From Hyphomicrobiales bacterium (GTDB lineage: Bacteria; Pseudomonadota; Alphaproteobacteria; Rhizobiales; Xanthobacteraceae): DNA of 64,000 nucleotides. The notes under the pieces are model-generated. The model searched no databases and had not been told where the DNA came from. It saw only the letters and a list, made by a program, of their open reading frames with translations. Each line of letters opens with the position of its first letter. The stretch's first letter is position 1. The DNA lies in contig JAFKKN010000004.1 of assembly GCA_017305535.1 (NCBI GenBank), positions 186,001 to 250,000 of the forward strand, in the 5' to 3' direction. The position numbers were made by a program, and so were the translations under genes. Positions 6,223-43,946 of this stretch are shown here, one piece after another.

Positions 6223-7134
6223 ATGAGTGCCAACGTCCGACATCCTGAATCCGGCACTGCCAAATCCGGCCTGCCGAATATCTCGTTCGAGTTCTTCCCG
6301 CCGAAGACCGAGGAGATGGAGCGCAGCCTGTGGGACGTGATCGAGCGCCTCGCACCCCTCACTCCGAACTTCGTTTCGGTGACCTACGGCGCCGGCGGCT
6401 CGACGCGTGAGCGCACCCACGCCACCATTGCCCGCATCCTCAACGAGACCGACCTCATCCCGGCCGCGCACCTCACCTGCGTGAATGCGCCGCGCGCCGA
6501 CATCGACGACGTGGTGGCGCGCTATCACGAGGTCGGCGTCCGCCATATCGTGGCGTTGCGCGGCGATCCGACCACCGGCATCGGCACGCCTTACGTTGCG
6601 CATCCCGACGGCTATCAGACATCGGCCGAACTCGTCGCCAGCATTCGCAAGCGTTACCCCGATATCGACGTCACGGTGTCGGCCTATCCGGAGAAGCATC
6701 CCGAGAGCCGCGACTTCGATGCCGATCTCGACGTGCTGCAAGCCAAGGTCGATGCTGGCGCAACCCGCGCTATCACGCAGGTGTTCTTCGATAACGATCT
6801 CTACTTCCGCTATCTCGACCGCGTGCGGGCGCGCGGCATCGACATTCCAATCCTGCCGGGCATCATGCCGATGCACAACTTCAAGCAAGCCCGGAATTTC
6901 GTCACGCGTGCCGGCACCACCGTGCCGTCGTGGCTGGACGAGAAATTCGACGGACTCGATGACGATGCCGAGACCCGCAAGCTGGTGGCCGCCGCCGTCG
7001 CCGCCGGTCAGGTGCAGAAGCTTGCCAAGCACGGCGTCGAGAATTTCCATTTCTATACGATGAACCGCGCCGATCTGGTGTTCGCCATCTGCCACCTGCT
7101 CGGCATTCGGCCCGCAACCCAAAAGGCGGCCTAA
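6223..7134 (+). CDS. metF: 5,10-methylenetetrahydrofolate reductase
   Basis: A 303-residue FAD-dependent TIM-barrel enzyme that reduces methylene-THF to methyl-THF, the methyl donor for MetH. The N-terminus NISFEFFPPKTEEME contains the conserved catalytic Glu region, followed by FVSVTYGAGGSTRERT and HIVALRGDPT, the folate/FAD-binding strands; QVFFDNDLYFRY and GIMPMHNF are also family hallmarks. It is followed about 120 bp downstream by metH on the same strand, with a palindromic repeat in the gap. The pair forms one biochemical unit. Confidence 0.95.
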   Translation: MSANVRHPESGTAKSGLPNISFEFFPPKTEEMERSLWDVIERLAPLTPNFVSVTYGAGGSTRERTHATIARILNETDLIPAAHLTCVNAPRADIDDVVARYHEVGVRHIVALRGDPTTGIGTPYVAHPDGYQTSAELVASIRKRYPDIDVTVSAYPEKHPESRDFDADLDVLQAKVDAGATRAITQVFFDNDLYFRYLDRVRARGIDIPILPGIMPMHNFKQARNFVTRAGTTVPSWLDEKFDGLDDDAETRKLVAAAVAAGQVQKLAKHGVENFHFYTMNRADLVFAICHLLGIRPATQKAA

Positions 7135-7146
7135 CCTTAATCTTCC

Positions 7147-7236
7147 GTCGTGCCCGGCTTTATGCCGGGCATCCACGTCTTAAAGGCATTGCCAGTTCAA
7201 AGGCATGGATGGCCGGGATAGGCCCGGCCATGACGA
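7147..7236. repeat. Palindromic intergenic repeat, copy 4 (metF-metH gap)
   Basis: GTGCCCGGCTTTATGCCGGGCAT forms one hairpin and GGCCGGGATAGGCCCGGCC a second, joined by CATCCACGTCTT ... GCATGGATGGCC. The element sits inside the metF-metH interval and supplies a spurious in-frame ATG at 7205. Confidence 0.65.
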
Positions 7237-7252
7237 TCACAGGACGATTTCC

Positions 7253-10200
7253 GTGACCAAAGTTTCGAATCCCACCGCCGACCGTATCCGCGAACTCGCC
7301 CGCGAGCGCATTCTGGTGCTCGACGGCGCCATGGGCACCATGATCCAGGCGCTGCAATATGATGAGGCGGCCTTTCGCGGCGAACGCTTCAAGGACTTCC
7401 ATCGCGACCAGCGCGGCAACAACGACCTGTTGATCCTCACGCAACCCAAAGCGATCGAGGACATTCACGCGCAATATTTGCGCGCGGGCGCGGACATCGT
7501 CGCCACCAACACCTTCTCGTCGACCTCGATCGCGCAGGCCGATTACGACCTCAGCGATATCGTCTATGAGATGAACCGCGAAGGCGCGCGGCTGGCGCGG
7601 AACGCCGCCGAACGCGTCAGCGCCGAGGATGGCAAGCCGCGCTTTGTCGCTGGCGCCATCGGCCCGACCAACCGCACCGCATCGATCTCGCCGGACGTTT
7701 CCAATCCGGGCTATCGCGCCGTCACCTTCGACGACCTGCGCAAGGCCTATGCCGAACAGATCAACGGCCTGCTCGATGGCGGCGCCGATCTGCTCCTGGT
7801 CGAAACCATCTTCGATACGCTCAACGCCAAGGCTGCACTCTACGCGATCGCCGAGATTGGCGAGGAACGCGGCCTCGACATTCCCGTGATGATCTCCGGC
7901 ACCATCACCGATAAATCGGGCCGCCTGCTGTCGGGTCAGCTGCCGGAGGCGTTCTGGCATTCGGTGCGACATGCCAATCCGCTCACCATCGGCTTCAACT
8001 GCGCGCTCGGCGCGGAAGATTTGCGCGCACATGTCGCCGACATCGGCCGCGTCGCCGATACGCTGGTGTGCGCCTATCCGAACGCCGGCCTGCCGAACGA
8101 ATTCGGCCAGTACGACGAAAGCCCCGAATACATGGCGCGGCTGGTCGGCGAATTCGCCCAAGCCGGCCTCGTCAATATCGTCGGCGGTTGCTGCGGCACC
8201 ACGCCGGACCATATCGCTGCGATCGCCGCCGCCGTCGCGCCGCATCCGCCGCGCGTCGTGCCGGTGCTGGAGCCGCGGCTGCGGCTGTCGGGCCTCGAGC
8301 CCTTCTCGCTGACGGCCGACATTCCCTTTGTCAATGTCGGCGAGCGCACCAACGTCACTGGCTCTGCCAAATTCCGCAACCTCGTCAAGGCGGGCGATTA
8401 CACCGCAGCTCTTGATGTCGCGCGCAGCCAGGTCGAGAACGGCGCGCAGATCATCGACGTCAACATGGACGAAGGCCTGCTCGATTCCGAACAGGCAATG
8501 ATCACGTTCCTCAACCTGATCGCCGCCGAGCCCGACATCGCGCGCGTGCCGGTAATGGTCGACTCGTCGAAATTCTCGGTGATCGAGGCCGGGCTGAAAT
8601 GCCTGCAAGGCAAGCCGGTCGTGAACTCGATCTCGCTGAAGGAAGGCGAGGAGAAATTCCTGCACGAGGCACGAATCGCGCGCCGTCACGGCGCGGCCGT
8701 GGTGGTGATGGCGTTCGACGAAACCGGACAGGCCGATACCTATCAGCGCAAGACCGAAATCTGCAAACGCGCCTACGATATCCTCGTCGAGAAGGTCGGC
8801 TTCCCGCCGGAAGATATCATCTTCGATCCGAACATTTTTGCGATCGCAACCGGACTCGAGGAACATAACAACTACGGCGTCGACTTTATCGAGGCGACGC
8901 GCTGGATTCGTCAGAACCTGCCGCACGCCCATATTTCCGGCGGCGTGTCGAACCTGTCGTTCTCGTTCCGCGGCAACGAGCCGGTGCGCGAGGCGATGCA
9001 CTCGGTGTTCCTGTATCACGCCATCAAGGCCGGCATGGACATGGGCATCGTCAATGCCGGGCAGATGATCATCTATGACGACATCGATTCCGAGCTGCGG
9101 CAGGTCTGCGAGGACGTGATCCTCAACCGTGATCCCGGCGCGTCGGAGCGACTGCTCAACCTCGCGGAAAAATTCCGTGGCCAGAGCAAGCAGGCGAAAG
9201 AAGCCGATCTGACCTGGCGCGAATGGCCGGTGGAGAAGCGGCTGTCGCACGCACTGGTCAACGGCATTACCGAATACATCGAGCAGGACACCGAGGAAGC
9301 GCGGCAGAGCGTGGATCGTCCGCTCTCCGTGATCGAAGGTCCGCTGATGGCCGGCATGAACGTGGTCGGTGACCTGTTCGGCGACGGCAAGATGTTTTTG
9401 CCGCAGGTGGTGAAGTCCGCACGCGTGATGAAACAGGCGGTCGCCTACCTGATGCCGTTCATGGAAGAGGAGAAGGCCCGCAACCAGGCCGCCGGCATCG
9501 CCGGGGACGGGAGGAATTCCGCCGGCAAGATCGTGCTTGCCACGGTGAAGGGCGATGTCCACGACATCGGCAAGAACATCGTCGGCATCGTACTCCAGTG
9601 CAACAACTACGAGGTGATCGACCTCGGCGTAATGGTGCCGGCCGCCAAAATCATCGAGACCGCGCGCGACGAGGAGGCCGACATCGTCGGGCTCTCGGGC
9701 CTGATCACGCCGTCGCTGGATGAAATGGGTTACTTCGCCGCCGAGCTGGAACGGCAGGGCTTGAAGCTGCCGCTGCTGATCGGCGGCGCTACCACCAGCC
9801 GCGTGCATACCGCGGTGAAGATCGATCCCAACTACCAGAGCGGTCCGGTGGTGCACGTCAACGACGCCAGCCGCGCGGTCGGCGTGGTCGCTTCGCTGAT
9901 GTCGCCGGAGCGGCGCGAGGCTTACGCATCCGAAGTGCGCGCCGAATACGCCAAGATTTCCGCCGCGCATTTTCGCGCCCAGCAGGACAAGAAGCGGATT
10001 ACGTTGGCCGCCGCGCGTGCCAATGCGGTACCGATCGACTGGAGCAGCTATCGCCCGACCACGCCGACCTTCCTCGGCACGAAAGTGTTCACCGACTATC
10101 CGCTGGAGGAGCTGGTCGAGGTGATCGACTGGACGCCGTTCTTCCAGGTCTGGGAATTGTCCGGCCGCTTCCCGGCCATTCTCGACGACAAGGTGGTCGG

Positions 10201-11125
10201 CGAAACCGCGCGCTCGCTCTACGACGACGCGCGCAAGATGCTGGAGAAAATCGTCAAGGAGAAGTGGTTCAAGGCGTCCGGCGTGATCGGCTTCTGGCCC
10301 GCCAACAGCGTCGGCGACGACGTCGTGGTCTACAGCGACGAAAGCCGAACCACGCCAATCGCGACCTATCACACATTGCGCCAGCAGCTCGAGAAGCGCG
10401 AAGGCCGCCGCAACGCCGCGCTGGCGGACTTCATCGCGCCGAAGGACACCGGCATTTCCGACTATATCGGCGGCTTCGCGGTGACCGCCGGGCTTGGCGA
10501 GGATGAGATCGCGATGCGTTTCAAGAACGCCAACGACGACTATTCGTCGATCCTGGTGAAGGCGCTGGCGGATCGTCTCGCCGAAGCCTTCGCCGAGCGG
10601 ATGCATCAACGCGTGCGCAGAGAATTCTGGGGCTACGCTCCGGACGAAGCGCTCGACAACGAACAGCTCATCAAGGAAGAATACAAAGGCATTCGCCCTG
10701 CGCCGGGTTATCCGGCGCAGCCCGACCACACCGAGAAGGCGACGCTGTTCAGCCTGCTCGATGCGACGCGCGCGACCGGCGTCGAGTTGACCGAAAGCTT
10801 CGCGATGTGGCCCGGTTCGTCAGTGTCGGGCCTCTATTATAGCCATCCCGAAAGCTATTACTTCGGCGTCGGCAAGATCGAGCGCGATCAGGTCGAGGAT
10901 TATGCCGCTCGCAAGGGGCGATCGCTTCAGGAAATGGAGCGCTGGCTGGCGCCGATCCTCAATTACATTCCGTCGCGCGACGCTCCCGTGAGCAGCATTT
11001 CGAGCAGCGACGCGCCCGCTCCGGCCAACGACGTCACCGATGGCGATCCGTTATCGCATCCGCCGGGCTGCGGCTGTGCTTTCCATCTGCGCTATCGCAA
11101 CAAGAAGGCGGGCGCGAACGGCTGA
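7253..11125 (+). CDS. metH: Cobalamin-dependent methionine synthase
   Basis: A 1,290-residue cytoplasmic enzyme that transfers a methyl group from methyl-THF to homocysteine through cobalamin. Four modules are visible: the homocysteine domain (about 1-330) with zinc ligands C250, C313 and C314; the pterin domain (about 350-620, [14 protein letters not shown]); the cobalamin module (about 640-890) with the DVHDIGKN motif and axial H770; and the C-terminal AdoMet-reactivation domain (about 950-1270). I start it at GTG 7253 because the upstream ATG at 7205 lies inside a palindromic repeat and would add 16 unrelated residues. The protein ends in an [13 protein letters not shown] tail. Confidence 0.95.
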
Positions 11126-12175: not shown

Positions 12176-12610
12176 TCACGCCGCCGGCTGGAACAGCTTG
12201 GCAACGCTGTCCTTAAACGGCTCAACAGCGTCGGTTGCGACCTTGCGCGAGAGTTCAGCCAATTCCCGCGACTGGTCCGTGAGGGTCTCGATCTGCTTGC
12301 GCGCGTGGGACTGCCACAGCTCGGCGGCCTGCGAGACGGATTTCACACCGGCGAGTTGCTGCGCGAGGTCGAACGCCGCAAACGTATTGGCCTGAAAGAA
12401 TCCCAGCATTTTGGAGGAATAGTCGCTGATGCCCTTGCTGGCGACGCCAAATACCGCTTCGACCGCGACGTTATTGCCCTGGGCAGCGTCCTTGAGCCGA
12501 TCGTAGTTCTGCTGCGCCTGGGCGAAGCCGCTTTCGACGAACGCCCGAACCGGCTCGGGAATACCGAAGACTGTCGGGGGAACGGTAAAGGAATGGGTGA
12601 AATCGGCCAT
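12176..12610 (-). CDS. Phasin-family protein
   Basis: A 144-residue, largely alpha-helical protein without signal peptide. The FVESGFAQAQQNYDRLKDAA, ISDYSSKMLGFFQANTFAAFD and SVSQAAELWQSHARKQIETL segments fit the phasin domain (phasin_2 type). Phasins coat polyhydroxyalkanoate granules and control their size; some family members have other roles. AAGGGG lies upstream of the ATG. No other PHA gene is nearby, although the acetoacetate-handling scoAB genes lie 5 kb away. The family call is good, the role is inferred. Confidence 0.85.
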   Translation of the reverse strand: MADFTHSFTVPPTVFGIPEPVRAFVESGFAQAQQNYDRLKDAAQGNNVAVEAVFGVASKGISDYSSKMLGFFQANTFAAFDLAQQLAGVKSVSQAAELWQSHARKQIETLTDQSRELAELSRKVATDAVEPFKDSVAKLFQPAA

Positions 12611-12995
12611 GACAGCGCCCCTTATTCGATGAGTTCAAGCTGGCGCCAATCCACATGTGACGCGACATCTTGCCGAACCGGGCCGCATATGCGTCGCCCA
12701 TCAAGGTCCCCAGCGTCTTCTATCTACCAAGATTTTTTGTGCGATGCAACATAATCTCCGATTCGGTTCGAAAGGACAGCGCCCATTGCGCCCGCCAGCG
12801 TCCGACAAGGGCGCTTCACGGCCTGAAGCTCGTGACAGTCGCCAAATTAACGCTATTCCGGCTTTCACTTGCATGGTTCCGAGCTAACCGTGGACCGGAT
12901 CGCCGCCGGAGGCGATACTAACCAAATGTTAAGCCTATTCGCTCGAGCGCGCCCTCGGGCAGCGATTCCTTAGACATCCGGACCTCAATCATGGC
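12611..12995. other. Divergent promoter region, phasin and kinase
   Basis: A 385-bp gap between divergent genes with no credible coding frame. It holds a CtrA-box-like motif about 70 bp before the kinase start. Nothing else was recognised. Confidence 0.5.
12918..12933. promoter_or_regulatory. CtrA-box-like motif upstream of the PAS kinase
   Basis: CTAA-CCAAATG-TTAAG: the spacing matches the alphaproteobacterial CtrA consensus TTAA-N7-TTAAC with one mismatch in each half. It precedes a PdhS-like kinase gene, which would be a sensible CtrA target. Sequence-only inference. Confidence 0.3.
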
Positions 12996-15900
12996 GTGGC
13001 GATGAACAACGCGGAATTCCAGTTGCGAGGGGTACACGACGCCCGACTGGCGGTTCACGCCATCAGTGCGTCGCCGTCGTGGCTGTGGACTTTCGACGGC
13101 GCTCGCGTGCTGTGGGCAAACCCGGTCGGCGTGGCGCTGCTCGGCGCGACCGATGCCGGGACGTTGGCCGCTCGGACCTTCAGCCCCGCCGACCAGCAGC
13201 GCCGCCAGGTCGCCCATCTCGCAGGGCGGCTGTCGTCAAACGCGGTCCCGCGTCTGGAGCGGCTACGAGGGTTCGGCGCGCCGCTCGGCAGCCTCGTCAC
13301 CTGTATCTGCACCCGTCTGCCGTTCGCCAATGGCGACAGCGGAATCCTGATCGTTGCCGCCACGACCGGAGGACGAGCGATGCCGCTCGACGAACGGCTG
13401 CGACGCATCGTCGAGACCGTCGAGATGCCGATGGCAGCGTTCACGCACGACGGCAAGTTGGTCGGCGCCAGCGAAACGGCGCGCGCGTTGCTCAATGGCC
13501 GCAATCTGGTCGATATCGGTCTTGGGCGGACACGTGACGACGCGCTGAGCACGGGCCATGCCGAAGCGACCATCGACGCCGGGCATGTCACGCTGCAACG
13601 TATCGGCAGCGGCAACGACATCGGTTTAATCGCGACCATTGCTCCGGCCATTATGCCGACCGCGATCCTCCCCGTGGACAACGCGTCGCCAGAACCAATC
13701 GCGCCCCCGCCTCCGGAGTCCATCGAGCCAACGATGGCGCACGCGTCGCCATCGGAAGCGATCGTCGATCGGGACAACGACGCGAACGTGCCGATGCAGG
13801 ATGCACCGGTCGCCGACGAAATGGCAGCCAGCACGTCAGAGGTCGATGCAGCAGCAACGCCGAAAGCAGCGCCCACGGACGATCCAGTCGAGGTGCCGAA
13901 GCCGATCTGGCCCCATGCGTCTGATCATGATGAAGCGGAGACCGCCGACGCATCGGCTCCCGCTCCGCGAACTGACCTACCTGCGGCCGATCACGTCGCT
14001 CAAGGCGCCCGGGCGGCCGCGTCAGTTAACGTCTCGCCGCCACGCGACGCGGTACAGCCGGTCCGTTTCGTCTGGCAGATGGACGCGGACGGCCGTTTCC
14101 TGCTCGGCTCCGACGATTTCATGCGATTGATCGGCACCCGGACCGCCGGTGCATTCGGGCGGCCATGGGATGAAATCGTCGCGGCCCTCGACCTCGACCC
14201 GCAGGGCCTCGTCGCAAAGGCCGTGGCGACCCATGAAACCTGGAGCGGCATCACGCTGAACTGGCCGGTGGACAATCACGGTCAGCGTTTGCCGGTGGAG
14301 TTGTCCGGGCTGCCGGTGTTCGACCGTGCACGCAGCTTCGCGGGCTATCGCGGTTTTGGTGTCTGCCGCGATCTCGCGCGGCTCAGCGAACTGGCGAACG
14401 GTCAACACACAACGCTCTTCCACGATCTTCCCGCGCCGCGCCCGCTCGCGGCCGACGTCCCGCATGCGTCGGCACCGAGCGCGGACGCCGCGCCGATGCC
14501 GCCTTCCCACGAACACGCGCCTTCTCCGGTGGAAGCATCGTTTTCACCGCCAACCGATCCGGATACGACTTTGGATAACGTCTTAGAGAATTCCCAAAAC
14601 GTGGTGCCGTTCAGGCTTGCGCCCGATGCGAAGCTGCCGACGCTGACACCCGTGGAAAACAACGCCTTCCACGAACTGGCCCGGCAACTGTCGGCGCGAT
14701 TGGAAAGCGAGACCGGCGAAACGGAGACCCCGTCATCCGACCACGACGATGCCGCTGCAAACGTTGATGCGCCCACGCGACCGGAAGCCGGGCACAACGA
14801 GACCACCCTCAACTCGCGCCAGCCGCCGACGTTGCCTCACGGCGAAAGCGCGCGCGATACGCAACTTCTCGACCTGATGCCGTCCGGCGTATTGATCTAC
14901 CGGCTGGAGCGGCTGCTCTACGTCAACCGCGCTTTCCTCTCGCGTCTCGGATTTAACGATCCCGACACGCTCCACGCCGCAGGTGGTCTCGACGCACTTT
15001 ACATCGATCCGGCGGATGCCGTCGCGAACAGCATCAACGACGCTGGTGCGGCAGTGACGATCGCCACGCAAAATGCGCTGGTTGCGCCGGCTCAGGCTCA
15101 CTTGTCCGCCATCGCATGGGACGGCGAACCGGCGCTGGCTCTGATCCTGACGGACACCGCACATACATCGGCGGCGGCACCTGCCGCGGTCGCGATCACC
15201 TCACCTCCACCTCCCGCCGACGGCCGGGTTAACGCCGAAGAACTGGGCGCCATCCTCGACACCATGGCGGAAGGCGTGGTGATGTTCGACGGGGGCGGTC
15301 GCATCAGCGCCTGCAACCGCAGCGCCGAGGCATTGTTCGGCGTCAGTGGAGACGAACTCACGCGACGGACTTTGTCGGAACTATTCGCGCCGGAAAGCGA
15401 AAAGGCCGTGCGGGACTATTTCGACAGCATCGCCAACGCCGATGCCGCCAGTCTGCTCGATCATGGCCGCGAAGTTCTGGGCCGCGTGCATGAGGGTGGC
15501 TTCCTGCCGCTAGCCATGACGATGGGCCGCACCATGCCCGGCAGTCCGAACTACTTCGCGGTGTTTCGCGATCTGACGCAAAGCAAGAAAGACGAAGCCG
15601 CGCAGCATCTGGCGCGACGCCAGACCGAACGCGCCGCGACCGCGAAGGCCGACGTGCTGGCCCGCGTCAGCCACGAAATCCGCACACCGCTCAACGCCAT
15701 TATCGGCTTCGCCGATGTGATGATCGACGAACGTTTCGGGCCGCTGGGGCACGAGCGTTATACCGAATATCTCAAGGACATTCGCGCATCCGGCGAGCGC
15801 GTTTCCTCCATCGTCGATGAAATGCTCGATTTGTCACGGGCCGAGACCGGCAAACTCGATCTGGCTTTCGGCCGTCACAACCTCAACGATTTGCTGGAGC

Positions 15901-16334
15901 AATGTGTTGCGGTGATGCAGCCGCGCGCCAATCGCGAGCGGATTATCATTCGCACGTCGCTTGCTCATACGCTGCCCGACATTGTCGCAGACGCACGTAC
16001 GCTGCGGCAGGTCGCGCTGAACCTGATCGGCAACTCGATCCGCCTTGCCAATGCCGGCGGTCAGGTGATCGTCTCCACCGCGCTCTCGGACGAGGGCGAC
16101 GTCGTACTGCGTGTGCGCGATACCGGGCACGGCATGAACGACAACGAACTCGCCGCCGCCGTCGAGCCGTTCGGAACACCGATGCCGGATCAGACGCCGG
16201 GCCATGTCGGCGTCAGTCTCGCGCTGACCAAGGCGTTGGTCGAAGCCAACCGCGCCCGGTTCCAGATCAAGAGCGTGCCGCGATCCGGCACGTTGATCGA
16301 AGTGACCTTCCCACAGGTCACGGCGCGGGCATAA
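12996..16334 (+). CDS. Multi-PAS sensor histidine kinase, PdhS/PleC/DivJ-like
   Basis: A 1,112-residue kinase with no transmembrane segment seen, so probably cytoplasmic. An N-terminal PAS-like region (about 20-150) is followed by long Pro/Ala/Asp-rich linkers (about 215-350 and 470-620), PAS-like domains near 355-455, 622-700 and 750-870, then HisKA (about 880-955; H893 in VSHEIRTPLNAIIGFADVM) and HATPase_c (990-1105; N box NLIGNSIRLA, G box DTGHGMND). The FADVMIDERFGPLGHERYTEYLKDI stretch after the His resembles the kinases acting on DivK/PleD. No response regulator is adjacent. The start is GTG 12996 or ATG 13002. Confidence 0.85.
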   Translation: MAMNNAEFQLRGVHDARLAVHAISASPSWLWTFDGARVLWANPVGVALLGATDAGTLAARTFSPADQQRRQVAHLAGRLSSNAVPRLERLRGFGAPLGSLVTCICTRLPFANGDSGILIVAATTGGRAMPLDERLRRIVETVEMPMAAFTHDGKLVGASETARALLNGRNLVDIGLGRTRDDALSTGHAEATIDAGHVTLQRIGSGNDIGLIATIAPAIMPTAILPVDNASPEPIAPPPPESIEPTMAHASPSEAIVDRDNDANVPMQDAPVADEMAASTSEVDAAATPKAAPTDDPVEVPKPIWPHASDHDEAETADASAPAPRTDLPAADHVAQGARAAASVNVSPPRDAVQPVRFVWQMDADGRFLLGSDDFMRLIGTRTAGAFGRPWDEIVAALDLDPQGLVAKAVATHETWSGITLNWPVDNHGQRLPVELSGLPVFDRARSFAGYRGFGVCRDLARLSELANGQHTTLFHDLPAPRPLAADVPHASAPSADAAPMPPSHEHAPSPVEASFSPPTDPDTTLDNVLENSQNVVPFRLAPDAKLPTLTPVENNAFHELARQLSARLESETGETETPSSDHDDAAANVDAPTRPEAGHNETTLNSRQPPTLPHGESARDTQLLDLMPSGVLIYRLERLLYVNRAFLSRLGFNDPDTLHAAGGLDALYIDPADAVANSINDAGAAVTIATQNALVAPAQAHLSAIAWDGEPALALILTDTAHTSAAAPAAVAITSPPPPADGRVNAEELGAILDTMAEGVVMFDGGGRISACNRSAEALFGVSGDELTRRTLSELFAPESEKAVRDYFDSIANADAASLLDHGREVLGRVHEGGFLPLAMTMGRTMPGSPNYFAVFRDLTQSKKDEAAQHLARRQTERAATAKADVLARVSHEIRTPLNAIIGFADVMIDERFGPLGHERYTEYLKDIRASGERVSSIVDEMLDLSRAETGKLDLAFGRHNLNDLLEQCVAVMQPRANRERIIIRTSLAHTLPDIVADARTLRQVALNLIGNSIRLANAGGQVIVSTALSDEGDVVLRVRDTGHGMNDNELAAAVEPFGTPMPDQTPGHVGVSLALTKALVEANRARFQIKSVPRSGTLIEVTFPQVTARA

Positions 16335-17167: not shown

Positions 17168-17818
17168 TCAAGCGTTCTTCAGCGCGACGCGGAAGTCGGC
17201 ATCGGTCTTCGATTTCACCTCGTCGAGGGTGACGCCGTCCGCCAGTTCGATCAGCGCCATGCCGTCGTTGCCGTGCTTGTCGATGGTGAACACCGCGAGG
17301 TCGGTGATCACCATGTCCACCACGCGCTCGCCGGTCAGCGGCAGGTTGCACTGCTTGAGCAGCTTGGGGCCGTCCTTGGCAGAATGCTCCATCACCACCA
17401 CGACGCGCTTGACGCCGGCGACGAGATCCATCGCGCCGCCCATGCCCTTGACCATCTTGCCGGGGATCATCCAGTTGGCGAGGTCGCCGTTCTGCGCGAC
17501 CTGCATCGCGCCGAGGATCGACAGGTCGATATGGCCGCCGCGCACCATGCCGAAAGAATCGGCGCTGGAGAAATAGCTGGTGTCCGGCAGTTCGGTCACG
17601 GTCTGCTTGCCGGCGTTGATGAGATCGGGGTCTTCGTCACCCTCATACGGAAACGGCCCCATGCCGAGCATGCCGTTCTCGCTCTGCAACGAGACGTCGA
17701 CGCCGTCCGGGATGAAGTTCGATACCAGCGTCGGGATGCCGATGCCGAGGTTGACGTAGAAGCCGTCGCGCAATTCCTTCGCCGCGCGGGCGGCCATCTG
17801 ATCGCGGGTCCATGCCAT
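17168..17818 (-). CDS. scoB: Succinyl-CoA:3-ketoacid CoA-transferase, subunit B
   Basis: A 216-residue family I CoA-transferase beta subunit. The catalytic Glu is expected at E47 in the SENGMLG motif; [31 protein letters not shown] and [10 protein letters not shown] are hallmark segments. With subunit A it moves CoA from succinyl-CoA to acetoacetate. The gene starts 23 bp after scoA with a strong AGGAGAG site, so the two form an operon. A ketoadipate transferase (PcaJ) is a possible alternative, but these lengths and motifs fit SCOT better. Confidence 0.9.
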
Positions 17819-17841
17819 CGCTCTCTCCTGTATCCTGAACG

Positions 17842-18546
17842 TTACGCGGGGCGCTTGCGCAGGGTGCGCTGCTCGATGCGCTTCTTGTCGGTGCCCACCT
17901 CGATGATGCGCTGAACGAAGATGCCCGGCGTATGGATGTGGTCCGGATCGATTTCGCCGGCCGGCACCAGATGCTCGACCTCGGCAACGGTGATCTTGGC
18001 GGCGGTCGCCATCATCGGGTTAAAGTTACGCGCAGTCTTGCGGTAGACCAGATTGCCAGCGGTATCGCCCTTCCAGGCGTGGACGATGGCCAGATCGCCG
18101 AAAAGGCCGCGTTCCATCAGGTACTTCTGGCCGTCGAATTCCTTCACTTCCTTGCCTTCGGCGATCAGCGTGCCGACACCGGTCTTGGTGTAGAACGCCG
18201 GAATGCCGGCACCGCCGGCACGGATGCGCTCGGCCAATGTGCCCTGCGGACAGAATTCCAATTCCAGTTCGCCGGCGAGATATTGCTGCGCGAACAGCTT
18301 GTTCTCACCCACGTAGGAAGAAATCATCTTCTTGATCTGGCGTGTCTCCAGCAGGCGGCTGAGCCCGATGCCGTCGACACCGGCATTGTTCGACACCACG
18401 GTCAGATTCTTGACCCCGGACTCGCGCAAGGCATCCGACAACGTCTCGGCGATACCGCACAGGCCGAAGCCGCCGGACATCACCATCATGCCGTCCTTGA
18501 GAATGCCGTCGAATGCCGATTTGGCGTCGGGAAAAACCTTGTTCAT
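17842..18546 (-). CDS. scoA: Succinyl-CoA:3-ketoacid CoA-transferase, subunit A
   Basis: A 234-residue alpha subunit. The glycine-rich [14 protein letters not shown] near residue 23, [14 protein letters not shown], and [15 protein letters not shown] are the family's CoA-site segments, and [16 protein letters not shown] with [20 protein letters not shown] closes the domain. It is the first gene of the scoAB pair on the minus strand. Together they permit use of acetoacetate and thus of PHB breakdown products. Confidence 0.9.
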
Positions 18547-42375: not shown

Positions 42376-42391
42376 TTAAGAGGGCGTTAAT
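42376..42391. promoter_or_regulatory. CtrA-box-like motif upstream of the sigma54 regulator
   Basis: TTAA-GAGGGCG-TTAAT matches both TTAA half-sites of the CtrA consensus with 7-bp spacing; only the last base differs. It is about 60 bp before the regulator start, where CtrA could act as activator. It is the best CtrA-like match in the window. Confidence 0.45.
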
Positions 42392-42449
42392 CGGCATCGG
42401 TGAGAGTGCCCCGATTCGAAACAGATAGTTGTTCCGTGCGGGGAGTGCC

Positions 42450-43946
42450 ATGGCTGCCACCATTTTGATCGCCGATGATGACGCCGTACAGCGTCGTCTC
42501 GTGGAAAACATGGTGCAGCGGGGCGGCTACGAGGCCGTCGTGGTCGACAACGGCGATGCTGCGCTGGCGCGGCTGACCGACCCGGACGCAACCCCGATCG
42601 ACGCCGTGGTGCTCGATCTGGTGATGCCCGGCCTCGACGGCATGGGCGTGCTGAGCGGAATGCGCGAGGCCGGACTCAATACACCCGTCATCGTGCAGAC
42701 TGCCCATGGTGGCATCGACAACGTGGTCTCGGCGATGCGCGCCGGCGCCCACGATTTCGTGGTCAAGCCGGTCGGCGTCGAGCGCTTGCAGGTGTCCTTG
42801 CGCAACGCGCTCAACACCAGCGCGCTGAAGGGTGAACTCCAGCGAATCAAGCACAGCCGCGAAGGCAAACTGACCTTCGCCGACATCGTCACCCGCAACG
42901 AGGCGATGGCTACCGTGCTGCGCACCGCGCGCAAGGCCGCCACCTCGACCATTCCGGTGCTGATCGAAGGCGAATCCGGTGTCGGCAAGGAATTGATGGC
43001 CCGTGCCATTCACGGCAGCGGCGAACGCGCCAGCAGGCCCTTCATCGCCGTCAACTGCGGCGCGATCCCGGACAATCTGGTGGAATCGATCCTGTTCGGC
43101 CACGAGAAGGGCGCGTTCACCGGTGCCACCGAGCGCCACACCGGCAAGTTCGTCGAAGCCTCCGGCGGCACGCTGTTTCTCGACGAGATCAGTGAACTGC
43201 CGCTCAGTGCGCAGGTGAAGCTGTTGCGCGCGTTGCAGGAAGGCACCGTGGAAGCGGTCGGCGGCCGCCGCCCGGTCAAGATCGATGTCCGAATTATCTC
43301 GGCGACCAACCGCAAGCTGCTGGATCAGGTCAAAGCCGGCCATTTCCGCGAGGATCTGTTCTACCGCCTGCATGTGCTGCCGCTCACCGTGCCGCCGTTG
43401 CGCACCCGCCGCGAGGACATTCCGCATCTGGTGCGACATTTCCTGGCGCGGTTCTGCGCCGAGGAAAATCGTGTCATCACCAGCGTCAGCGGCGAGGCGA
43501 TGACCCGCCTTGCGCAACTTGAGTGGCCCGGCAACATCCGGCAGCTTGAAAACACGGTTTACCGCGCCGTGGTGCTCAGCGAGAGCGATCAACTCGGGCT
43601 GGCCGACTTTCCACAACTCTCTGCACCGCCGCTCGACGCCCTCGACTATTCCGAGGAGCCGCTGACGATCGAACCCGCCTTCCATCCGACCGCGCCGGAA
43701 CTTGCGGGTAATGACATACCCATCGCACCGTTCCCGAACGGCTCCCTCGCCATGCTCACCGATGCCGGCGAGATGCGCCCGCTGGAAGAGATCGAAAACG
43801 AGGTCATCCGCTTCGCGATCTCGCACTATCGCGGCCAAATGTCCGAGGTGGCGCGGCGACTGAAGATCGGGCGATCGACACTCTACCGGAAGCTCGACGA
43901 CGCGGCTGCTGTCGACGCGATGGATGCGCCCGAAAAGAACCGGTGA
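42450..43946 (+). CDS. Sigma54-dependent response regulator, TacA-like
   Basis: A 498-residue regulator: receiver domain (about 4-120, phospho-acceptor D56 in VVLDLVMPG), AAA+ domain (about 145-380) with Walker A GESGVGKE, the sigma54 contact motif GAFTGA and Walker B GGTLFLDEI, and a C-terminal Fis-type HTH (about 445-485, MSEVARRLKIGRSTLYRKL). It resembles Caulobacter TacA in architecture, but orthology is not proven. The linker between AAA+ and HTH (390-440) is low complexity. ATG 42450 has GGGAG before it. No kinase is adjacent. Confidence 0.9.
   Translation: MAATILIADDDAVQRRLVENMVQRGGYEAVVVDNGDAALARLTDPDATPIDAVVLDLVMPGLDGMGVLSGMREAGLNTPVIVQTAHGGIDNVVSAMRAGAHDFVVKPVGVERLQVSLRNALNTSALKGELQRIKHSREGKLTFADIVTRNEAMATVLRTARKAATSTIPVLIEGESGVGKELMARAIHGSGERASRPFIAVNCGAIPDNLVESILFGHEKGAFTGATERHTGKFVEASGGTLFLDEISELPLSAQVKLLRALQEGTVEAVGGRRPVKIDVRIISATNRKLLDQVKAGHFREDLFYRLHVLPLTVPPLRTRREDIPHLVRHFLARFCAEENRVITSVSGEAMTRLAQLEWPGNIRQLENTVYRAVVLSESDQLGLADFPQLSAPPLDALDYSEEPLTIEPAFHPTAPELAGNDIPIAPFPNGSLAMLTDAGEMRPLEEIENEVIRFAISHYRGQMSEVARRLKIGRSTLYRKLDDAAAVDAMDAPEKNR

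Follow-up and report, generated by a model that had tools for sequence, protein, structure and literature searches.

Does a large soluble histidine kinase of the PdhS type still feed phosphate into the DivK-CtrA circuit, which helps set replication and division timing in alphaproteobacteria, or does it act there in another way? The question is raised by a gene at 12996..16334 (+) in a window of 64,000 nucleotides from a Hyphomicrobiales bacterium of the family Xanthobacteraceae (contig JAFKKN010000004.1, positions 186,001 to 250,000; coordinates below are those of the window). The frame is open for 1112 codons from GTG 12996, in agreement with the 1,112 residues given by the first-pass annotation of this DNA; it encodes a soluble PdhS/CbrA-type protein of 118 kDa, and the ATG at 13002, which gives 1110 amino acids (aa), is an equally good start. 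On balance, we lean towards the reading that a CtrA-controlled soluble PdhS protein has turned into a pseudo-histidine kinase in the lineage of this bacterium, where it would lower or buffer phosphorylated DivK (DivK~P) by means of its histidine domain.

Loss of an ATP-lid glycine in one clade

The catalytic part of the protein comprises a HisKA (dimerisation and histidine phosphotransfer, DHp) domain at aa 861-950 (15576..15845, +; Pfam HisKA, 65.1 bits), with the phospho-acceptor His893 (15672-15674) and the phosphatase threonine Thr897, and a HATPase_c (catalytic and ATP-binding, CA) domain of histidine-kinase fold at aa 958-1107 (15867..16316, +; Pfam, 58.9 bits). An active HisKA kinase is expected to possess an intact N box and a G-x-G-L-G-L lid. 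Neither is seen here: the lid reads HVGVSL within a derived G2 box (16203..16232, +) that has HVGVSLALTK for GTGLGLPLTK, with His replacing Gly1070 and Ser replacing Gly1074, and in the derived N box (16005..16055, +) Lys1016 is changed to Arg and Phe1017 to Leu, as judged from the orthologue alignment.

This alignment holds 116 loci. The genera of the window's lineage supply 56, the remaining genera of the family 39, and other families or named genomes 16; five more were assigned to neither group, three g10 loci with Gly1074 and two loci without it, one from g15 and one from g50. Throughout the 13 genera and 56 loci of the lineage, the lid GTGLGLPLTK is replaced by, for example, HVGVSLALTK or SSGVSLSLTK. 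The last glycine of GxGLGL, Gly1074, is absent from 56/56 lineage loci (Ser in 46, Asn in 8, Asp in 2) and present in 38/39 loci of the family's other genera and 16/16 loci of other families and named genomes (54/55 overall). One Ancylobacter gene, under the names L257 and L154, is counted in each of these comparison groups, and the 16 include three divergent best hits (L067-L069) that appear in none of the trees. For the N box, Lys1016 occurs in 0/56 lineage loci versus 34/39 and 13/16 elsewhere, and Phe1017 in 1/56 versus 35/39 and 13/16. The acceptor itself persists, with His893 kept in 55/56 lineage loci and Glu894 in 56/56. Thr897 is found in 39/56 and missing in 17/56, compared with 38/39 and 14/16 loci elsewhere; within the window's own genus it is retained throughout (8/8 C-terminal loci), two genomes of that genus having the gene split over contigs, with the pieces used apart. 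The phospho-His itself is replaced in some further PdhS orthologues, by Leu in L058 (G036), Glu in L063 (G021) and Arg in L066 (G014) and L159 (Methylorubrum); some of these losses are recent, since the relatives G317 and G318 of G036 still have the His.

The genera were assigned to the lineage after the residues had been seen, and a tree made without the CA domain and residues 893-898 provides an independent check for 60 of the 116 loci. It was built from the N-terminal modules, a segment of linker 2 and the DHp domain, and covers 41/56 lineage loci and 12/13 genera; g8, not included in it, lies inside the lineage in the 90-row tree described below. The lineage forms one clade (Shimodaira-Hasegawa-like approximate likelihood ratio test, 100), with one change. 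We therefore reject the explanation that the grouping is an artefact of shared lid residues. In the 90-row tree, g15 and g50 come closest to the lineage among the rows outside it, so the change at Gly1074 may be one node older. Thr897 behaves differently on the CA-free tree, with at least 11 changes, being missing in 14/41 derived and 0/19 canonical rows. The largest genus sampled, g40 (76 of the 284 genomes listed), is probably Bradyrhizobium, and the lineage very probably includes that genus; by eye, a FixL from one g40 genome hardly differs from the FixL kinase portion of PDB 4gcz, which comes from B. japonicum. Among the genomes of the family, 27/291 gave no match to the protein at an expectation value (E) of 1e-60, and 7/41 genera had none at that threshold.

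Paralogous kinases are intact. In a check of 54 loci (44 clear orthologues, 9 kinases of 35-40% identity and one DivL-like protein), 44/44 clear orthologues of the own PleC-like (17), DivJ-like (9) and 550-aa (18) kinases keep HExxTP, the K-F of the N box and GxGxGL. A clear orthologue here has at least 63% identity to the own protein over the C-terminal part, and 43/44 stem from lineage genomes, L312 coming from G021 outside the lineage. The G2 pattern was found in 7/9 of the other kinases of 35-40% identity, and the GLG core is kept by all 10 other kinases, the DivL-like protein included, that were fetched of the 14 non-window kinase matches in the own genome. One genome, G061 (g55), carries two PleC-like genes (L319 and L321), both of which show 70% identity to the PleC-like protein of the own genome.

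The CA domain is maintained by purifying selection, since the ratio of nonsynonymous to synonymous substitution rates (dN/dS, by counting) is 0.01-0.17 for this domain in 17 pairs within the lineage; the whole frame, including some codons 5' of the start, gives 0.06-0.37. Mean pairwise identity between genera points to a lid that is less constrained in the lineage (0.48 versus 0.70 elsewhere), with similar values for the CA core (0.70 versus 0.71) and for the presumed docking stretch 899-934 (0.73 versus 0.73). An AlphaFold2 (AF2) model of aa 736-1112, with a mean predicted local distance difference test (pLDDT) score of 82.3, has the form of a histidine kinase, and its PDB matches include DivL 4q20. 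A scan of genome contigs gave six clear orthologues (L074-L079) among the 80 matches listed, the remainder being weaker kinase matches; 8 of the 80 matches listed gave access to genomes, and 14 were used in the structure alignments.

PdhS kinship and the CtrA-type site upstream

The best NCBIfam model for the protein is PdhS (NF041593; 553.6 bits), with DivJ at 131.5 bits. The curated cut-off of NF041593, 2000 bits, is missed by the window protein and by the Rhizobium orthologue (1016 bits); since the latter fails too, we consider this cut-off narrower than the PdhS family. In a tree of 90 DHp-CA rows, 66 rows make up a soluble PdhS clade supported at 100/100, the bootstrap being not fully settled. 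The clade holds orthologues from Rhizobium, Roseibium, Oceaniradius, Ancylobacter, Methylovirgula and Methylorubrum, and the PleC-like, DivJ-like and 550-aa kinases of the own and named genomes fall outside it. The link to Brucella, Agrobacterium and Sinorhizobium, which have no rows in this tree, is made through NF041593. The PdhS kinship suggested in the first-pass annotation is thus supported, the HisKA domain grouping within PdhS (100/100) and not outside it. The orthologue of G077 (g38) is identical in the compared columns to that of Ancylobacter defluvii, and G077 is Ancylobacter.

Large size (>100 kDa) and the lack of membrane domains are described for the soluble PdhS class (PMC3577659). 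The window protein agrees with this description: at 118 kDa it has hardly any hydrophobic stretch, with 1/1094 segments of 19 residues reaching 1.6 (by hydropathy only, no topology program), compared with 17, 32 and 45 segments in the own PleC-like, DivJ-like and 550-aa proteins. Its size and solubility are therefore not new, and together with CtrA control they are already known for the class. PdhS of Brucella abortus, CbrA of Sinorhizobium meliloti and PdhS1 of Agrobacterium tumefaciens are likewise large, soluble and multi-PAS proteins with a CtrA-type site upstream, and all three are reported to localise to the old pole (PMC7003649). The degenerate ATP lid and N box set the window's lineage apart from them. 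In S. meliloti, CbrA reportedly acts as a DivK kinase, and its branch is needed for symbiosis (PMC11500502).

Upstream of the gene, CTAACCAAATGTTAAG at 12918-12933 (+) has the form CTAA-N7-TTAAG, one mismatch from the CtrA core TTAA-N7-TTAA, and starts 78 bp 5' of GTG 12996 and 84 bp 5' of ATG 13002. The window alone says little about it, because it contains 6 one-mismatch sites versus 2.16 expected and 2/100 shuffles reach 6. Orthologues are more informative. When up to one mismatch is allowed, 76 of the 114 loci with enough upstream DNA carry a site at -350..+120 relative to the open frame, versus 4/647 equal-length gene-body segments, the base composition of which differs from that of upstream DNA. 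Under a Markov null derived from each upstream stretch, 77/118 loci have the site versus 5.3 expected, this version taking in four loci with cut-off upstream DNA. Although the loci are related and hence not independent counts, a chance origin is rejected, and the motif that the first-pass annotation had noticed before the kinase gene recurs across the orthologues. It is present in 48/56 loci (11/13 genera) of the window's lineage, where CTAAC-N6-TTAAG is the prevailing form, and in 28/58 loci (18/32 groups) elsewhere. The recognition sequence reported for Agrobacterium is TTAA-N6-GTTAAC, with at least 7 matching bases (PMC7003649).

CtrA binding to the cbrA promoter of S. meliloti was reported from chromatin immunoprecipitation sequencing (PMC4433202), and for the pdhS1 promoter of A. 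tumefaciens a predicted site and a response to mutations in pdhS2 and divK are described (PMC7003649). In view of these data and the conserved site, CtrA control is the expected reading: CtrA would bind at 12918-12933, and transcription of the gene is probably under its control. A sigma-70 promoter scan of 12600-13100 gave no match. The sole exact TTAA-N7-TTAA of the window, at 42376-42390, lies directly 5' of a gene (42429-43946) for a 505-aa response regulator of NtrC/NtrX type with receiver, sigma-54 activator and Fis-type helix-turn-helix domains.

Possible roles in the DivK-CtrA circuit

The own genome encodes the partners that such a protein would meet. A DivK-like gene (L277) adjoins pleD (L267; PRK09581 above cut-off), CtrA was identified in L272 (NF045991 above cut-off), and a DivJ-like kinase, a PleC-like kinase and a DivL-like protein are present. 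The PleC-like, DivJ-like and 550-aa (PdhS2-like) kinases have a DHp domain of the same superfamily as the window protein and probably also meet DivK; they differ from it by their separate clades and intact catalytic motifs. DivL is an established pseudokinase of the CtrA circuit in Caulobacter (PMC4211667), and the window protein resembles it in having a histidine-kinase fold without expected autokinase activity and a DHp domain that would face DivK. The residues lost are reversed, however: DivL has Tyr for His and, in the own homologue, an intact lid, and the window protein has kept His893. In that homologue (L006:1474-3753) Tyr replaces the phospho-His and the lid reads GAGLGL, making it the mirror image of the window's PdhS.

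Other kinase-like proteins offer looser parallels. One version of the histidine kinase ChrS of Corynebacterium glutamicum has reportedly been described as a pseudokinase, but it serves an unrelated heme-stress pathway. ChpT and Spo0B are phosphotransferases on a kinase-like fold, with a phosphorylatable His retained and an ATPase-like domain that has no kinase role. Unlike them, the window protein has PAS modules attached and a CA domain that still matches HATPase_c well; for a ChpT-like role, in which the His takes a phosphoryl group from a receiver, it offers the His kept in 55/56 loci and nothing further.

Autokinase activity depends on the His together with a working lid. Phosphatase activity depends on the Thr and, to judge by A. 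tumefaciens PdhS2, for which H271A is reported to complement and T275A not (PMC7003649), can do without the His. With the lid glycine and the N-box residues lost, the protein would not be expected to phosphorylate itself. The PAS modules and linkers would place and tune it, the DHp helices would dock DivK and perhaps PleD, and the retained His would receive its phosphoryl group either from DivK~P or, in trans, from a partner kinase, with DivJ and the 550-aa kinase supplying the phosphate. Phosphotransfer or phosphorylation in trans fits best, because the lineage keeps the His, has changed the lid and loses the Thr; a sink needs the His only, and a scaffold needs neither. The protein would then be no source of DivK~P but would reduce or buffer it, with a sign opposite to that of CbrA. 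Thanks to the retained Thr, DivK~P could still be dephosphorylated in the window's genus, and a phosphatase role is also possible there since Thr897 is kept in 8/8 loci. Overall, the lid residue missing in this bacterium and a group of related ones suggests a 'dead' kinase reused for docking or phosphate handling.

For the first-pass annotation the protein was a kinase that might transfer phosphate to DivK. The kinship with PdhS is as it described; the degeneration of the core in the lineage had escaped it and makes phosphotransfer from ATP to DivK doubtful. As CbrA is reported to be a DivK kinase in S. meliloti (PMC11500502), loss of autokinase activity would remove or reverse the CbrA-type branch. 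More tentatively, and with the odds in our view against it, one conversion may extend across genera that very probably include Bradyrhizobium, all with a CtrA-controlled pseudokinase serving as phosphate sink or relay on DivK and with the sign of the CtrA-CbrA-DivK feedback of Sinorhizobium reversed. If the CbrA orthologue were a pseudokinase in a Bradyrhizobium-type lineage, conclusions from Sinorhizobium on the sign of this branch would not be transferable, and the circuit would contain, beside DivL, a second natural case of a repurposed histidine kinase, with the opposite residues lost. No report of a degenerate PdhS was found in the literature covered, which leaves out most subscription journals.

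Several observations weigh against our preferred reading. Asp1042 and Gly1044 of the G1 box are both kept in 56/56 lineage loci, so nucleotide may still bind, and Gly1072 is kept in 40/56. The window's Arg1016 occurs in 8/55 canonical loci and its Leu1017 in 3/55, and the first lid glycine is also absent from two further own-genome kinases, so that Gly1074 is left as the sole firm difference; one canonical locus, L052, is without Gly1074 as well. The lid has pLDDT <50 in both AF2 models, and its structure is thus not fixed by them. The DHp domain is slightly less conserved in the lineage than elsewhere (mean pairwise identity 0.71 versus 0.79), and the loss of Thr with the His kept also fits a kinase-only enzyme. 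Sink and phosphatase are not separable in the window's genus, given its 8/8 Thr897. Finally, the labels DivK-like, PleC-like and DivL-like come from recognition and tree position, an NCBIfam E of 1e-70 being too strict as a test.

The main rival, to which we give an appreciable but minor probability, is a CbrA-type DivK kinase that has stayed active despite its unusual ATP lid, with Ser or Asn at 1074 and His or Arg at 1016 being tolerated or compensated. The retained G1-box residues and acceptor His, the canonical loci with Arg1016, the strong purifying selection on the CA domain and the reported activity of CbrA (PMC11500502) would all suit such an enzyme, as would the loss of Thr in a kinase without phosphatase activity. 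It fares less well with the lid, which varies more freely in the lineage and the glycine of which is kept in 54/55 canonical loci, 44/44 clear paralogues and the 10 other own-genome kinases checked. A protein acting only as a phosphatase on DivK~P and PleD~P, in the manner of PleC, is unlikely: it agrees with the retention of both His and Thr897 in the window's genus and with the PdhS2 mutants (PMC7003649), but Thr897 is missing in 17/56 lineage loci, and the reading does not explain why the His is kept where the Thr is gone. Quite unlikely, too, is a DivL-like sensor whose DHp-CA part binds DivK~P and signals to a partner such as CckA without any phosphoryl chemistry. The precedent is DivL of Caulobacter, a pseudokinase that acts in this way (PMC4211667); DivL 4q20 is also among the structural matches of the model, and conservation of the presumed docking stretch 899-934 is the same inside and outside the lineage. 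Against this, the His is retained, unlike in DivL, and a Tyr-bearing DivL-like protein is already encoded in the own genome. Decay of the gene towards loss is very improbable. The family genomes without a match (27/291) and the loss of the His in a few orthologues (G014, G021, G036 and Methylorubrum) would agree with decay, but the open frame, the predicted fold and the upstream site are conserved, and the CA-domain dN/dS in the 17 pairs counts against it for the window's lineage; on the latter ground we reject it.

Modular architecture and gene neighbourhood

The full-length AF2 model is shallow (seven sequences) and poor overall (mean pLDDT 54.7). Five PAS-like folds can be made out in it from the succession of strands and helices, and it also contains a long DHp hairpin and the CA domain; Pfam finds three PAS_8 stretches over the whole protein. 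At the N terminus, two such folds (aa 28-123 and 131-217; 13077..13646, +) are followed by the disordered linker 1 (aa 219-354; 13650..14057, +), the length of which ranges from 13 to 270 residues in 60 orthologues. The third fold (aa 356-457; 14061..14366, +) has a median identity of 64% to the window across orthologues. After the mostly disordered linker 2 (aa 461-622; 14376..14861, +) come the fourth fold (aa 619-720; 14850..15155, +) and PAS 5 (aa 747-860; 15234..15575, +), the latter also recognised by Pfam (PAS, PAS_8 and PAS_9). The pLDDT is <50 at residues 219-354, 461-550, 567-622 and 721-750, and P, A, D, E, S and T make up 61-71% of residues in three linker stretches, the lengths of which vary among the 60 orthologues.

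The two long Pro/Ala/Asp-rich linkers pointed out in the first-pass annotation are thus real and disordered, except that the second is interrupted by a conserved segment (aa 534-575; 14595..14720, +) with a predicted helix at 552-572. The annotation's claim that such linkers are uncommon in soluble kinases found no support: the soluble PdhS class is described as exceeding 100 kDa (PMC3577659), and we do not regard them as a remarkable feature. Over its 42 residues, the segment has a median identity to the window of 62% in the 60 orthologues versus 21-24% for the flanking linkers, and its counterpart is recognisable in the Rhizobium orthologue. No second copy was detected in the own genome at E 1. 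We regard it as a candidate localisation or binding element.

On the 5' side, the gene is preceded by genes for MTHFR (6223-7134) and B12-dependent methionine synthase (7205-11125) and by a minus-strand phasin gene (12176-12610). Two CoA-transferase subunits are encoded on the minus strand on its 3' side (17168-18546).

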